Positions 12,215-56,672 of a stretch of 64,000 nt of DNA are shown here, piece after piece. The notes below the pieces were generated by a model, which had not been told where the DNA came from, did not search any database, and saw only the letters and a list, made by a program, of their open reading frames with translations. Numbering within the stretch: position 1 is the stretch's first letter; each line of letters begins with the position of its first letter. The DNA comes from Rhizobiaceae bacterium (lineage in GTDB: Bacteria; Pseudomonadota; Alphaproteobacteria; Rhizobiales; Rhizobiaceae), in contig JAEPNK010000001.1 in the NCBI GenBank assembly GCA_017643495.1, positions 1,035,623 to 1,099,622 on the forward strand, read 5' to 3'. The translations under genes and the position numbers were made by a program.

Positions 12215-13852
<1,638 letters not shown>

Positions 13853-50718: not shown

Positions 50719-52751
<2,033 letters not shown>

Positions 52752-52870
52752 TTAACGATTGGCGATTGTCGTTACCATGCCGCCTGCACCATGAAAAGCT
52801 TTTTCGCGCGGTTTCGCACACTCAATGACCAATTCCCGGCGCAATGGCGGAATGTCGCCATCTCCGTGCC

Positions 52871-54727
52871 TCAGCGGCTGATCACCAGCACCCGGACACG
52901 GGCACCGCTGGGCGATACTTCCTGCATCCAGGAAGGCAGGTCGCCCCTGATGATCCTGGCCGATACCGAAGCCTCGCCAAAGCGCGAAATGTCGCCCGCA
53001 ACGTTCCCGGTGCAAAAGGCGACATAGTCGATCCCGTATTTGCCTGCGATCTGTCGCGCGGTTTGCGTGTCGGTTTCCAGAAAGTCGAGTGTAGCCAGGA
53101 TCAGCTTTTCATTGCGATGATAGGGGCCGGCAAGCACACGGTGCCTTGTGTGGGCCAGCACCGCCATGCTGTTGGACAGGTCAGCGAGTACCAGACCCTT
53201 GTCCAGGGTATCCAGAAACGCATAGTCGACATTCATCAGGCAGTGATCCGGTTCCCGTCGTGGAAGCCTGTTTTCCTTGCCTTCGGAGAGTGCTTCAACT
53301 TTCTGCGCAGGTTCACCGGAAGATGCATCGCTTTCCAGAGGAAACAGCAGCACCCCGGCGACATGCCAGAACATGCCGACAAGCGGCACCATGGCAAAGA
53401 AGGCAAAGCCGTTTCGCAGCAGCGTTTCATTTGCATACCGCACCCTGAGCCAGTCGGCGGTCATTTTGGCAAACACTACACAAAACGGAATGGTGACATA
53501 GGCTGCTGTCCGGATAACCCGAACCTGGTACAGTGTGCCAAGGGAGAATGCGACAAGCACTGCATACAATGTCAGCAGTTTGGCTGTGCGGTATTGCGGA
53601 TTTGCAAGCACTATGAGCCCGATGGCAAGCATTGCCAGCAGGTAGCCTGCCGTGGCCAGCCAGTGAAACGGGTATTCCGCAAGAACATGCGCAAGGGATT
53701 TCGCCTCACTGACCTGCTCAAGCCATCTTGTCCTTGCTGCTTCACTGACATTTCCATAGGGCCCGGCCAGACAGTCGGGAAACAGGGCAAACAGCAACAG
53801 TGCAGCCAGGACAGCCAGACAGGCGCCTGCAAAACCCTTTCTGATCAGCCGGCTTGCTGGCGAGCCGGTGTCGAGAACCGGGGAAAGCAGGTAGAGCACA
53901 ATGTAGGCAGTGCCCACCAGCAACAATGCTGCCAGATAGAAAAGCGAATTGGCATCGCAATGCGTCTGGAAATAGCCGCCGGGCGGAAAACTGAGAGCGT
54001 AAAATGCGGTGCTGGCAACCATAAGGGAAAGCCCGGTTCGCAACATGCCCCGGCCATCGCGATCCAGCCCGGCAGCCCATTCAACCCCGGTTATTGTCAT
54101 CATGACCAACACAATTGGCAGTGTGTCGAGCCCAATGGTGACCGTAAGCGCGAGCGCCCCACCCAGCAACAGGTCTCCCCACCATGTTTCGCGGGAAACG
54201 AAGCCGAGAACCATGACGGAGAAAAGCAGTATCTGGACATTGTGGTGGTCAATCCGCCCGATCCCGAATTGGTTGATCGAGGATACCGAAAGAAGTACCA
54301 GCAATGTCGGCAGATAGCGGTTGTATCCGTCCAGCAACCGGTCACAGACAAGTGTCCATGTCACGATTGTTGCCGTCAGCAGGACAATCGGCCAGACGAT
54401 CGCGGCAAGGTTTGCCGCCGTATCAAAATCAGTGACTGTGCCAAACAAAAGGATGAGGAGGCCGAGCGGAACATCAACCAGCCGCGACCAGTGCATGTCG
54501 GCACTGCTGCCTGCCGGGCCGATGCGGTATGCGGCAAGGTCGAACCATCCCTGGCCACCAAGCCAGCTCTTGACCTGTTCCATTCTCAGAAAATCATCAG
54601 GCCCGTACAATTCACCATGCCACAAAACGGAAGGTATGCGCCCCTGGCCCCAAAAAAGCTGAAACGCAATGGCGAGGCAGGCGATCAGTAAAAGTGACGG
54701 ATTTTGCAGCTGGCTTCGGGCGCGCAT
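52871..54727 (-). CDS. STT3/AglB-like membrane glycosyltransferase (GT-C) candidate
   Basis: A 618-residue polytopic protein with about 11-12 membrane helices up to residue ~480 and a C-terminal soluble part of about 130 residues. The first extracytoplasmic loop has acidic D44-D45 (YGPDDFLRM) and ADMHWSRLVDVP (77-88), and the next loops have GRIDHH (157-162). This order and spacing recall STT3/PglB/AglB oligosaccharyltransferases (DxD-like acid, MHW, GxxDHH). The WWDYG motif of the catalytic domain is not seen; instead a LAGPYHRN segment occurs. It is divergent from a GtrB/DPM1-like glycosyltransferase. I infer a polyprenyl-phosphate-linked sugar transfer role, acceptor unknown. Confidence 0.6.
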   Translation of the reverse strand: MRARSQLQNPSLLLIACLAIAFQLFWGQGRIPSVLWHGELYGPDDFLRMEQVKSWLGGQGWFDLAAYRIGPAGSSADMHWSRLVDVPLGLLILLFGTVTDFDTAANLAAIVWPIVLLTATIVTWTLVCDRLLDGYNRYLPTLLVLLSVSSINQFGIGRIDHHNVQILLFSVMVLGFVSRETWWGDLLLGGALALTVTIGLDTLPIVLVMMTITGVEWAAGLDRDGRGMLRTGLSLMVASTAFYALSFPPGGYFQTHCDANSLFYLAALLLVGTAYIVLYLLSPVLDTGSPASRLIRKGFAGACLAVLAALLLFALFPDCLAGPYGNVSEAARTRWLEQVSEAKSLAHVLAEYPFHWLATAGYLLAMLAIGLIVLANPQYRTAKLLTLYAVLVAFSLGTLYQVRVIRTAAYVTIPFCVVFAKMTADWLRVRYANETLLRNGFAFFAMVPLVGMFWHVAGVLLFPLESDASSGEPAQKVEALSEGKENRLPRREPDHCLMNVDYAFLDTLDKGLVLADLSNSMAVLAHTRHRVLAGPYHRNEKLILATLDFLETDTQTARQIAGKYGIDYVAFCTGNVAGDISRFGEASVSARIIRGDLPSWMQEVSPSGARVRVLVISR

Positions 54728-54862
54728 TGCAGGTCTTCATGCTTCGGTTAACCGGTCGCAAGCCTAGGCCGTAATCATTAAATTAAGATTTATTGGATAT
54801 GCAGTCAGCAAGCCGCAAACAGTTTTGCGCGATATTGTTTCAGGCAATAAACAGGCTTCTTG

Positions 54863-55777
54863 ATGAGTGAATATTCCGGTGTTGCCGTAATCATACCCTG
54901 CATGAACGAGGAAGCCGCCATTGCCAAGGTCGTGCAGGATTTTCGTGCCTCCCTGCCGGGATGTACGGTGCACGTTTACGACAACAATTCCACTGACAGC
55001 ACTTCGCTGGTCGCCAGTAAGGCTGGTGCTGTTGTCGGTTTCGAAAAACGTCCCGGCAAGGGCAATGTCGTTCGGCGCATGTTTTCGCAGATCGAGGCAG
55101 ACATCTACATCATGGTGGACGGCGACGACACGTATGATGCGAGCCAGGCCCCCCAGCTTGTGAAAACCCTTCGCGAGGAAGCAGTCGACATGGTTGTGGC
55201 GGCGCGCCTTGGTGCCAGTGAAAAACATGAACGGGCAGGCCACGCGCTCGGCAACCGGTTGTTCAACGTGCTTTACAATTCACTGCTCGGGCGAGAGTTT
55301 TCCGACATCTTTTCCGGCTATCGCGCTTTCAGTCGCCGTTTTGTGAAAAGCTTCCCGGCACTGTCGACCGGGTTTGAGATCGAGACTGAACTCTCTGCCC
55401 ATGCCTCACAATTGCGATTGCCTGTTGCTGAAATTCCCTTTCACTACAAGGACAGGGCCGAAGGTTCGGAAAGCAAGCTCTCCACGTTCCGGGACGGGTT
55501 TCGCATCCTCAAGACAATTGTTGTCCTGTTGAAGGAATACAAGCCGCTCTACTTTTTCGGGTTTGCCGGTTTGATCGGTGCCGTTCTCTCTGTGGCGATT
55601 TTCCTGCCGGTCTTCTTCGACTATCTCAAGGATCCCGATACCTCGCTCATTCCAACAGCTGTCCTGTCCACCGGCATCATGATTGTCGCTATCCTGTCCG
55701 TAACCGCAGGCGTTATCCTGGATTCGATCCGTCGCTTCCGGGCTGAAGTAAAGCGGCTGTTTTACAACATCAGCTGA
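54863..55777 (+). CDS. GT2 glycosyltransferase, GtrB/DPM1-like
   Basis: A 304-residue inverting GT2 enzyme. VAVIIPCMNEEAAIAKVV and YDNNSTDST near the N-terminus, the metal-binding VDGDDTYD (about 91-98), FSDIFSGYRAFSRRFV and FEIETELSAHA match polyprenyl-phosphate glycosyltransferases. Two C-terminal membrane helices (about 231-253 and 264-285) anchor it. It would make an undecaprenyl-phosphate-sugar donor on the cytoplasmic face. The ATG at 54863 is used; a TTG codon precedes it. It is divergent from the STT3-like gene, a likely functional partner. A GGCGGG/CCCGCC hairpin lies downstream at 55826-55843. Confidence 0.85.
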   Translation: MSEYSGVAVIIPCMNEEAAIAKVVQDFRASLPGCTVHVYDNNSTDSTSLVASKAGAVVGFEKRPGKGNVVRRMFSQIEADIYIMVDGDDTYDASQAPQLVKTLREEAVDMVVAARLGASEKHERAGHALGNRLFNVLYNSLLGREFSDIFSGYRAFSRRFVKSFPALSTGFEIETELSAHASQLRLPVAEIPFHYKDRAEGSESKLSTFRDGFRILKTIVVLLKEYKPLYFFGFAGLIGAVLSVAIFLPVFFDYLKDPDTSLIPTAVLSTGIMIVAILSVTAGVILDSIRRFRAEVKRLFYNIS

Positions 55778-55976
55778 AACCTTCTGCTTGCGCTTGTCTG
55801 CGCTTTCCGTGAAGGCTTGCATTTCGGCGGGCTCAGCCCCGCCATGACGCGGCAGAAGAGCCGGACGTGTGCATTTTGTCACATCGCGAACCGCAGGCTC
55901 TTGCAATACTTGTCGCGATTACCCAAGGGCATTTCTGCCTGAAGGTCTGGCAGAAAGGGGCGCAGGGGTTTTTGCA

Positions 55977-56672
55977 ATGACTGAATTTTTCACGGAATTC
56001 TGGTCGAATTTCACCCGTCCTGAAAACATTGTCGGGCACATTGCCTATGTGCTTTTGATCACTTCCATGCTGATGCGCAGCATGAACTGGCTTCGGGCGC
56101 TTGCCATCCTTTCCGGAGCGATATCCGCCACCTTTTACTTCACGCTTGCAGACTATGTATCGATGTTCTGGGAAGCGCTTTTTTCCCTGGTCAATGCCGG
56201 GCAATTGCTGATCCTGCAGATTGAAAACCGGCGCGGGACATTCTCGGAAGACGAAGACCTTTTCATCAAAACCTGCCTGCCTGATATTGAACGCGCACAC
56301 GCCCGCAAGCTGGTCAAGCTCGGTGCCTGGACGGAAGTCGGCGAAGACACGGTGCTGATCACGGAGGATACCTGCCCGGAGAACTTGAAATTCATCGTCA
56401 GGGGAGCGGCGCATGTCACCCGCGACGCCCGGACGCTTGGAAAGGTGGGGCCTGGCGATTTTCTCGGTGAAATGTCCTACCTTACCAACCAGACAGCATC
56501 TGCAACCGTTACGACATCGGAGACCGTTCGTTACCTTGCGTTCAACCGCCACAGGCTCAAGGCCCATCTGGAGCGCAACAGCGAAGTGCGACACGCACTG
56601 GAAGCCAGTTTCAACCGCAACCTAGTAACCAAGCTTGCCAAGAGCAATGAAACCCCGCAGCCAGCCCGCTGA
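55977..56672 (+). CDS. Membrane protein with cyclic-nucleotide-binding-like domain (Popeye-like)
   Basis: A 231-residue protein. Three membrane helices (about 18-35, 38-57 and 62-82) are followed by a cNMP-binding-type beta domain (about 105-205) with FIVRGAAHVTRD and GDFLGEMSYLTNQTASATVTT. In CRP the phosphate cassette reads GE...PRAATV; here the Arg position is Ala164, so cAMP binding in the CRP manner is doubtful. No HTH follows. The three-helix plus cNBD layout matches bacterial Popeye-domain proteins. The ATG at 55977 is preceded by a weak CAGGGG box. It sits between the glycosyltransferase and guaA. Confidence 0.65.
   Translation: MTEFFTEFWSNFTRPENIVGHIAYVLLITSMLMRSMNWLRALAILSGAISATFYFTLADYVSMFWEALFSLVNAGQLLILQIENRRGTFSEDEDLFIKTCLPDIERAHARKLVKLGAWTEVGEDTVLITEDTCPENLKFIVRGAAHVTRDARTLGKVGPGDFLGEMSYLTNQTASATVTTSETVRYLAFNRHRLKAHLERNSEVRHALEASFNRNLVTKLAKSNETPQPAR

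Follow-up and report, generated by a model that had tools for sequence, protein, structure and literature searches.

Introduction

Three-component glycosylation systems, as outlined in PMC11127046 and PMC8035078, combine a lipid-sugar synthase, a flippase and a GT-C transferase; the GT136 transferase is introduced in PMC11127046 as a GT-C enzyme whose sequence resembles no known family. In oligosaccharyltransferases (OSTs), WWDYG and DK/MI motifs bind the Ser/Thr of the sequon, and Archaeoglobus fulgidus AglB, which carries Gly-Asn-Asp47 and Asp161-His-His163, uses a monophosphate lipid donor, according to the passages of PMC8342417 on these enzymes. The tryptophan C-mannosyltransferase DPY19 is portrayed in PMC10154233, where its reaction is treated, as moving one mannose from dolichyl-phosphate mannose (Dol-P-Man) to Trp independently of metal. 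Here we describe a divergent gene pair in a 64,000-nucleotide stretch of a Rhizobiaceae bacterium genome (assembly GCA_017643495.1, contig JAEPNK010000001.1, positions 1,035,623 to 1,099,622; hereafter, the window). One gene encodes a protein of 618 amino acids (aa) resembling STT3 and AglB (52871-54727, minus strand), and the other a family 2 glycosyltransferase, GT2, of 305 aa (54860-55777, plus strand). Both genes are confirmed as real. An earlier, sequence-only reading of the window had proposed that together they could form a periplasmic glycosylation system, an interpretation supported by the fold, the motifs and the co-occurrence of the GT2 gene. We estimate at roughly 0.72 the probability that the pair supplies two of the three components of a periplasmic glycosylation system whose transferase has an OST fold.

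The 618-aa protein has an OST-like predicted fold

An AlphaFold2 (AF2) model of the 618-aa protein, built from a 67-row family alignment, reached a mean predicted local distance difference test score (pLDDT) of 91.9. In a Foldseek search against the PDB, the top match was AglB (7e9s, E 1.3e-12), and rows 1-22 were all OST subunits or DPY19, some of them translocon-complex chains that we took to be STT3. VIA-align matched the model end to end with AglB 3waj (Z 27.2, 3.4 Å over 510 residues), followed by yeast and human STT3 (up to about Z 25), DPY19 (21.6), PglB (20), ArnT (Z 19.8 over 411 residues) and PMT (about Z 17). The C-terminal domain matched the AglB domain 3vu0_A (Z 12.2, 2.8 Å over 121 residues), and the family profile gave a single weak match to PDB sequences, on the AglB C-terminal domain 3vgp_A (E 0.16). 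The architecture expected of GT66, a GT-C fold with 13 transmembrane helices and a C-terminal periplasmic domain, was recognized from whole-model matches to AglB, STT3 and PglB rather than by counting transmembrane segments. The GT-C fold anticipated by the sequence-only reading is borne out by the predicted structure, which supports an OST-fold GT-C transferase that is specifically OST-like.

Sequence searches gave a faint link for the window protein alone and a clear one to archaeal STT3 among its relatives. The 618-aa protein had no match in Pfam at E≤1, none to the phage-protein families of PHROGs, and only a chance-like match to an unrelated enzyme when searched with phmmer against PDB sequences (E 0.051). 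The closest NCBIfam model to the protein alone was the archaeal STT3 model TIGR04154 (E 0.16). Kinship to GT66, GT39 or GT83, put forward earlier as a matter for profile searches, was seen among the relatives and not in the window protein, for which PF02516 and PMT_2 (PF13231, GT39/GT83) were both null at E≤1: TIGR04154 was matched by 21 of the 67 aligned members at E≤0.01 (best 1.5e-13), and every other NCBIfam model by at most one. PMT_2 gave weak matches in seven of the 67 at E≤1 (best 1.3e-5). PF10034, the DPY19 family, had no match to the window protein and one among the 67 members (E 0.2). PF02516 found nothing in the window's own genome and exceeded its cut-off in 0 of 241 genomes of the class. 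Since WWDYG and PF02516 were both looked for and neither was found, the transferase is not filed as GT66. True STT3/PglB membership was rejected on the PF02516 results and on the weakness of a profile comparison with eight bacterial STT3s (8.8% probability).

In a wider sample, PF02516 exceeded its cut-off in nine of 398 Pseudomonadota genomes (L111-L119), with WWDFG in two of the open reading frames (ORFs) read.

Probable OST-type catalytic residues are retained without WWDYG

Four motifs were placed in the protein, their window coordinates (all minus strand) being converted from residue positions. The first DXD-type motif, G42-P43-D44-D45 (54593-54604), has Gly-Asn-Asp47 as its AfAglB counterpart, and the second, D160-H161-H162 (54242-54250), has Asp161-His-His163. 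By motif type and position, rather than by measured superposition, these two appear to equal the DXD motifs of OSTs. A TIXE/SVSE-like site, V339-S340-E341 (53705-53713), falls in weak hhalign register with S-I-S-E of bacterial STT3s, and a family motif, G534-PYHR-N539 (53111-53128), sits in the C-terminal domain, where OSTs carry WWDYG. No WWDYG-like sequence was found in any of 118 family ORFs or in 21 divergent sequences. Because WWDYG is absent, recognition of an Asn-X-Ser/Thr sequon by the transferase is not expected.

Conservation was followed in alignment A1, the 67 rows of which are the window protein and 66 of 69 references (L045, L047 and L058 left out), loci L001-L020 lying outside it; a second alignment, A2, holds the window protein and 20 of 29 references. 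A broader family set of 98 sequences, made up of the query and the 97 of 110 matches that are 560-720 aa long, shrank to 86 once redundancy was removed. D44, R48, W80, D160, H161, H162 and H537 are invariant in the 67 rows, so that the motifs go beyond what chance would give. Residue 341 is glutamate in 59 rows, glutamine in seven and threonine in one, and the register of VSE with TIXE rests on a weak profile alignment. Because the patterns DDFLRMEQ and IDHHNVQI, which include two of these motifs, had served to find part of the aligned loci, conservation was rechecked in pattern-free sets. Among 18 sequences from the nearest genomes (L002-L020), D44, D160 and E341 were each present in 18/18 and H162 in 17/18. 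Among 21 divergent sequences from 20 regions of the class-wide sample, D44 and E341 were present in 21/21, D160 and H162 in 19/21, R403 and Y536 in 21/21, and H537 in 18/21.

These counts refine what had been claimed for the motifs. M78-H79-W80 and D160-H161-H162 lie where they had been placed and WWDYG is lacking, as reported, and the expected conservation of H161 and H162 holds. The acidic pair of the first loop stands by half: the core residue is D44, not D45, because D45 occurs in only 4/21 divergent sequences. MHW, read earlier as part of an STT3-like order, is a motif of the transferase family, and no evidence was found for it as an STT3 motif. Four cysteines conserved in the subfamily (257, 319, 496 and 572) could form disulfides.

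A polyprenyl-phosphate sugar synthase is encoded divergently

The GT2 protein matches PF00535 (1.8e-16) and the AglJ model TIGR04182 (E 2.6e-62, below the model's cut-off), and dolichol-phosphate mannose synthase (DPMS) leads its matches among PDB sequences. Its AF2 model (pLDDT 84.5) matches ArnC, DPMS and GtrB, and two long helices are predicted at the C-terminal end (residues 229-257 and 261-304). By family and fold it is probably a polyprenyl-phosphate sugar synthase of the AglJ/ArnC/GtrB type, in line with the lipid-linked sugar supply assigned to it in the sequence-only reading. TTG at 54860 gives the 305-aa protein; ATG at 54863 is the likelier start.

In haloarchaeal N-glycosylation, AglJ acts first and AglB last. 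An AglJ-like gene beside an AglB-like one, together with the OST fold and catalytic residues, would thus suit a true N-glycosylating OST of GT66 function, by which a ready-made oligosaccharide is moved onto Asn. We regard this as very improbable, as no member carries WWDYG, PF02516 is null in the bacterium's own genome, and glycan assembly genes are absent beside the transferase gene.

Relatives often carry a candidate flippase gene beside the pair

We examined the surroundings of the transferase gene in 80 related loci, near-duplicates of the same species being kept in the counts. Flippase models were built from members of the loci and identified by Pfam and NCBIfam matches of representatives (EamA and ArnE; GtrA). 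A GT2 gene, of the window-like or of a distant type, adjoins the transferase gene in 39 of the 80 loci (34 divergent, five on the same strand), and 38 of these 39 also have a small flippase-type gene: 11 ArnE/SMR-like, 25 GtrA and two with matches of both. Another six loci have GtrA without GT2. All 46 flippase-type matches lie within 1000 bp of the GT2 or transferase gene, 39 of them within 300 bp. The GT2 is close to that of the window in 30 loci and distant in nine (L060, L064, L067, L070, L073, L086, L087, L093 and L095, mostly named as Rhodobacterales), where it is paired with GtrA. The same transferase is accompanied by two unrelated flippase types and two GT2 types. To the sequence-only reading this adds a third partner, the flippase, which would make the system of the relatives complete.

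In the window, no flippase gene adjoins the pair. The search for an ArnE/SMR-like gene covered the window's genome, seven others of the genus and one more of the family, and found it in eight of these nine; the window's genome has a single GtrA gene, on another contig, with no glycosylation neighbours seen.

Presence in the same genomes was assessed in a class sample of 241 genomes from 191 genera that included the window's genome, with thresholds of E≤1e-20 for the transferase family and E≤1e-50 for GT2; the two samples were taken as the same draw. The transferase was found in 33 genomes, GT2 in 49 and both in 18, against 6.7 expected (Fisher p 2.2e-6). By genus, the numbers were 27, 36 and 14, against 5.1 expected (p 2.4e-5). 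In a phylum sample the family was present in 48 of 299 genomes, four of these outside Alphaproteobacteria. The association with GT2 claimed for the transferase gene holds, with limits: it is seen in 39 of the 80 loci and 18 of the 33 genomes, and is lacking in the remaining 15 genomes and, within the flanks read, in 20 divergent regions.

Several observations weigh against a three-component system around this transferase. The flanks examined held neither GT2 nor flippase in 35 of the 80 loci, and 15 of the 33 transferase-bearing genomes had no GT2 at E≤1e-50. No GT2 match was found in the flanks (up to about 3 kb per side) of any of the 20 divergent regions; GT2 adjacency therefore belongs to one subfamily. 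The window's genome is the sole exception among the nine searched in that no ArnE/SMR-like match was found in it. The co-occurrence statistics ignore kinship above genus. Taken by itself, the window protein is tied only weakly to STT3 by sequence (TIGR04154, E 0.16), and profile comparison by hhalign with eight bacterial STT3s reached only 8.8% probability, with D160 and E341 in register with STT3 motifs.

Some of this would fit a chance or merely inherited adjacency, with the transferase and GT2 serving separate processes: the pair is adjacent in only part of the family, and close relatives share a neighbourhood by descent. The triad nevertheless recurs across Rhizobiaceae, Rhodobacterales and Caulobacterales with differing flippases, GT2s and gene order, and we give chance adjacency the least credence of all the alternatives, marginally below that of a true N-glycosylating OST.

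Three further features of the related loci were noted. Tandem transferase copies, two each, occur in the close relatives L002-L005, L010 and L021, which suggests two acceptors or linkages. A divergent FAD-dependent oxidoreductase gene of the PRK07208 group adjoins the transferase gene or its GtrA gene in 11 loci (L032, L038, L044, L048, L052, L057, L059, L072, L076, L081 and L084). A Sphingomonas homologue beside GtrA (L153, 6857-8626) is annotated as an AcrB/AcrD/AcrF family protein, apparently wrongly.

Proposed mechanism, sugar and acceptor

In the three-component system that we favour, GT2 would charge polyprenyl phosphate with one sugar, taken from a nucleotide-sugar at the cytoplasmic side, as its family and fold indicate. 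A small flippase, ArnE/SMR-like or GtrA and encoded next to GT2 or the transferase in relatives, would turn the lipid-sugar to the periplasm; the lone GtrA elsewhere in the window's genome is the candidate for this step. The 618-aa protein would then bind the lipid-sugar, coordinate a divalent metal through D44, D160 and H162 together with E341, as in AglB, and pass the sugar to a periplasmic acceptor. Since the metal ligands are retained, OST-like chemistry sensitive to ethylenediaminetetraacetic acid (EDTA) is predicted.

One locus carries a hint of the sugar. On a Roseivivax plasmid, genes for a phosphomannomutase, GtrA and GT2 lie opposite the transferase gene, with a mannose-1-phosphate guanylyltransferase gene next to it, which suggests mannose as the sugar at this locus. 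Mannose was rejected as the general sugar: a scan of the window and of the loci gathered by then (L101-L132 left out) found phosphomannomutase and ManC homologues only in the Roseivivax locus. Within a few kilobases of that locus, the annotation lists a protein with a STING domain (L155, 1258-2103).

As putative acceptor, we place a conserved envelope glycan or glycolipid slightly ahead of protein. The transferase would then act in the manner of ArnT or Gtr, with the OST fold reused for lipid A, core, O-antigen or exopolysaccharide, and we judge the odds to lie just in favour of this. The gene triad is like those of the Arn and Gtr systems, ArnT shares the fold (Z 19.8, 411 residues), weak PMT_2 matches occur among the relatives, and the Roseivivax locus brings its two mannose-pathway genes. 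On the other hand, the OST matches stand clearly above ArnT (Z 27 versus 20), and those mannose-pathway homologues occur in only one scanned locus.

A periplasmic or secreted protein is a possible but somewhat less probable acceptor; a single sugar would be placed on Asn, Ser/Thr or Trp without WWDYG, as by DPY19. The best fold matches, STT3, AglB and PglB as well as DPY19, have polypeptides as substrates, the transferase retains a C-terminal domain resembling that of AglB (Z 12.2), the metal site follows OSTs, and the window gene lies outside any polysaccharide cluster. Against this, WWDYG is missing from all 118 family ORFs, and the known three-component systems with GT2 and GtrA or SMR modify glycans, as far as PMC11127046 and PMC8035078 describe them. 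The more specific proposal, sequon-independent bacterial protein glycosylation by an OST homologue to which a polyprenyl-phosphate synthase and a flippase of its own bring one sugar at a time, is slightly more doubtful still. If protein glycosylation were true, an OST core would operate in a Gtr/Arn-type system that is widespread in Alphaproteobacteria, present in few other Pseudomonadota and missed by Pfam.

Gene layout and neighbours

The two genes diverge from a 132-bp intergenic region (54728-54859), in which no sigma-70-like promoter was found with a model that says little for this organism. An antisense open frame of 615 aa, rich in Cys and Gln, covers the transferase gene (52844-54691, plus strand); because the homologues read the minus strand, it is taken as a shadow ORF. 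The flanking genes are ordinary. Downstream of the transferase gene is what we take from its sequence to be a guaB-like gene (51174-52676). Directly 3′ of GT2 lies a gene for a membrane protein with a cyclic-nucleotide-binding domain (55968-56672, plus strand, possibly from 55869), which matches PF00027 (1.7e-11) and, weakly, the Popeye/POPDC family PF04831 (3.9e-5). Elsewhere in the window, a Cpn60-family chaperonin of 544 aa (PF00118) is encoded at 12215-13849 on the minus strand.

Discussion

The transferase family occurs widely among Alphaproteobacteria, in 33 of the 241 genomes sampled, yet it had no name of its own in the Pfam and NCBIfam scans made, and full-text searches of the open literature found no description of it, subscription papers and preprints being outside the scope. 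If the favoured three-component reading is true, it links the catalytic core of OSTs with periplasmic glycosylation of the three-component kind, opens a test of kinship between OSTs and single-sugar GT-C enzymes, and predicts a novel sugar modification in rhizobia and roseobacters.

Among known enzymes, AglB (GT66) resembles the 618-aa protein over the whole fold (3waj); both have DHH as the second DXD motif, E341 is a candidate for the TIXE glutamate, and the first motif is GND47 in AglB and GPD44 here. The monophosphate lipid donor of AglB is also of the kind that GT2 would make. Unlike AglB, the 618-aa protein lacks WWDYG, has a shorter C-terminal part with its own conserved PYHR and Cys residues, and has a partner GT2 that suggests a single-sugar donor. 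DPY19 likewise has an OST-like fold (Z 21.6) and takes a single sugar from a lipid monophosphate, and is by analogy a precedent for an OST-fold enzyme working in this way. The transferase family differs from metal-independent DPY19 in keeping the metal ligands of OSTs, and its only PF10034 match is the one among 67 members at E 0.2.

With the Arn (ArnC-ArnE/F-ArnT) and Gtr (GtrB-GtrA-Gtr) systems, the loci of relatives share a lipid-sugar synthase, a small flippase-type protein and a GT-C transferase encoded together. They differ in that the transferase is OST-like by fold rank, ArnT ranking lower, and in the window's genome the flippase gene is not adjacent. The three-component pentofuranosyl systems of GT136 follow the same logic; unlike here, their donor enzyme is described in PMC11127046 as a polyprenyl phosphoribose synthase and their flippase as a member of the MATE family. 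By analogy with these systems, the pair described here would share the three-component design, with an OST-fold enzyme as its transferase.

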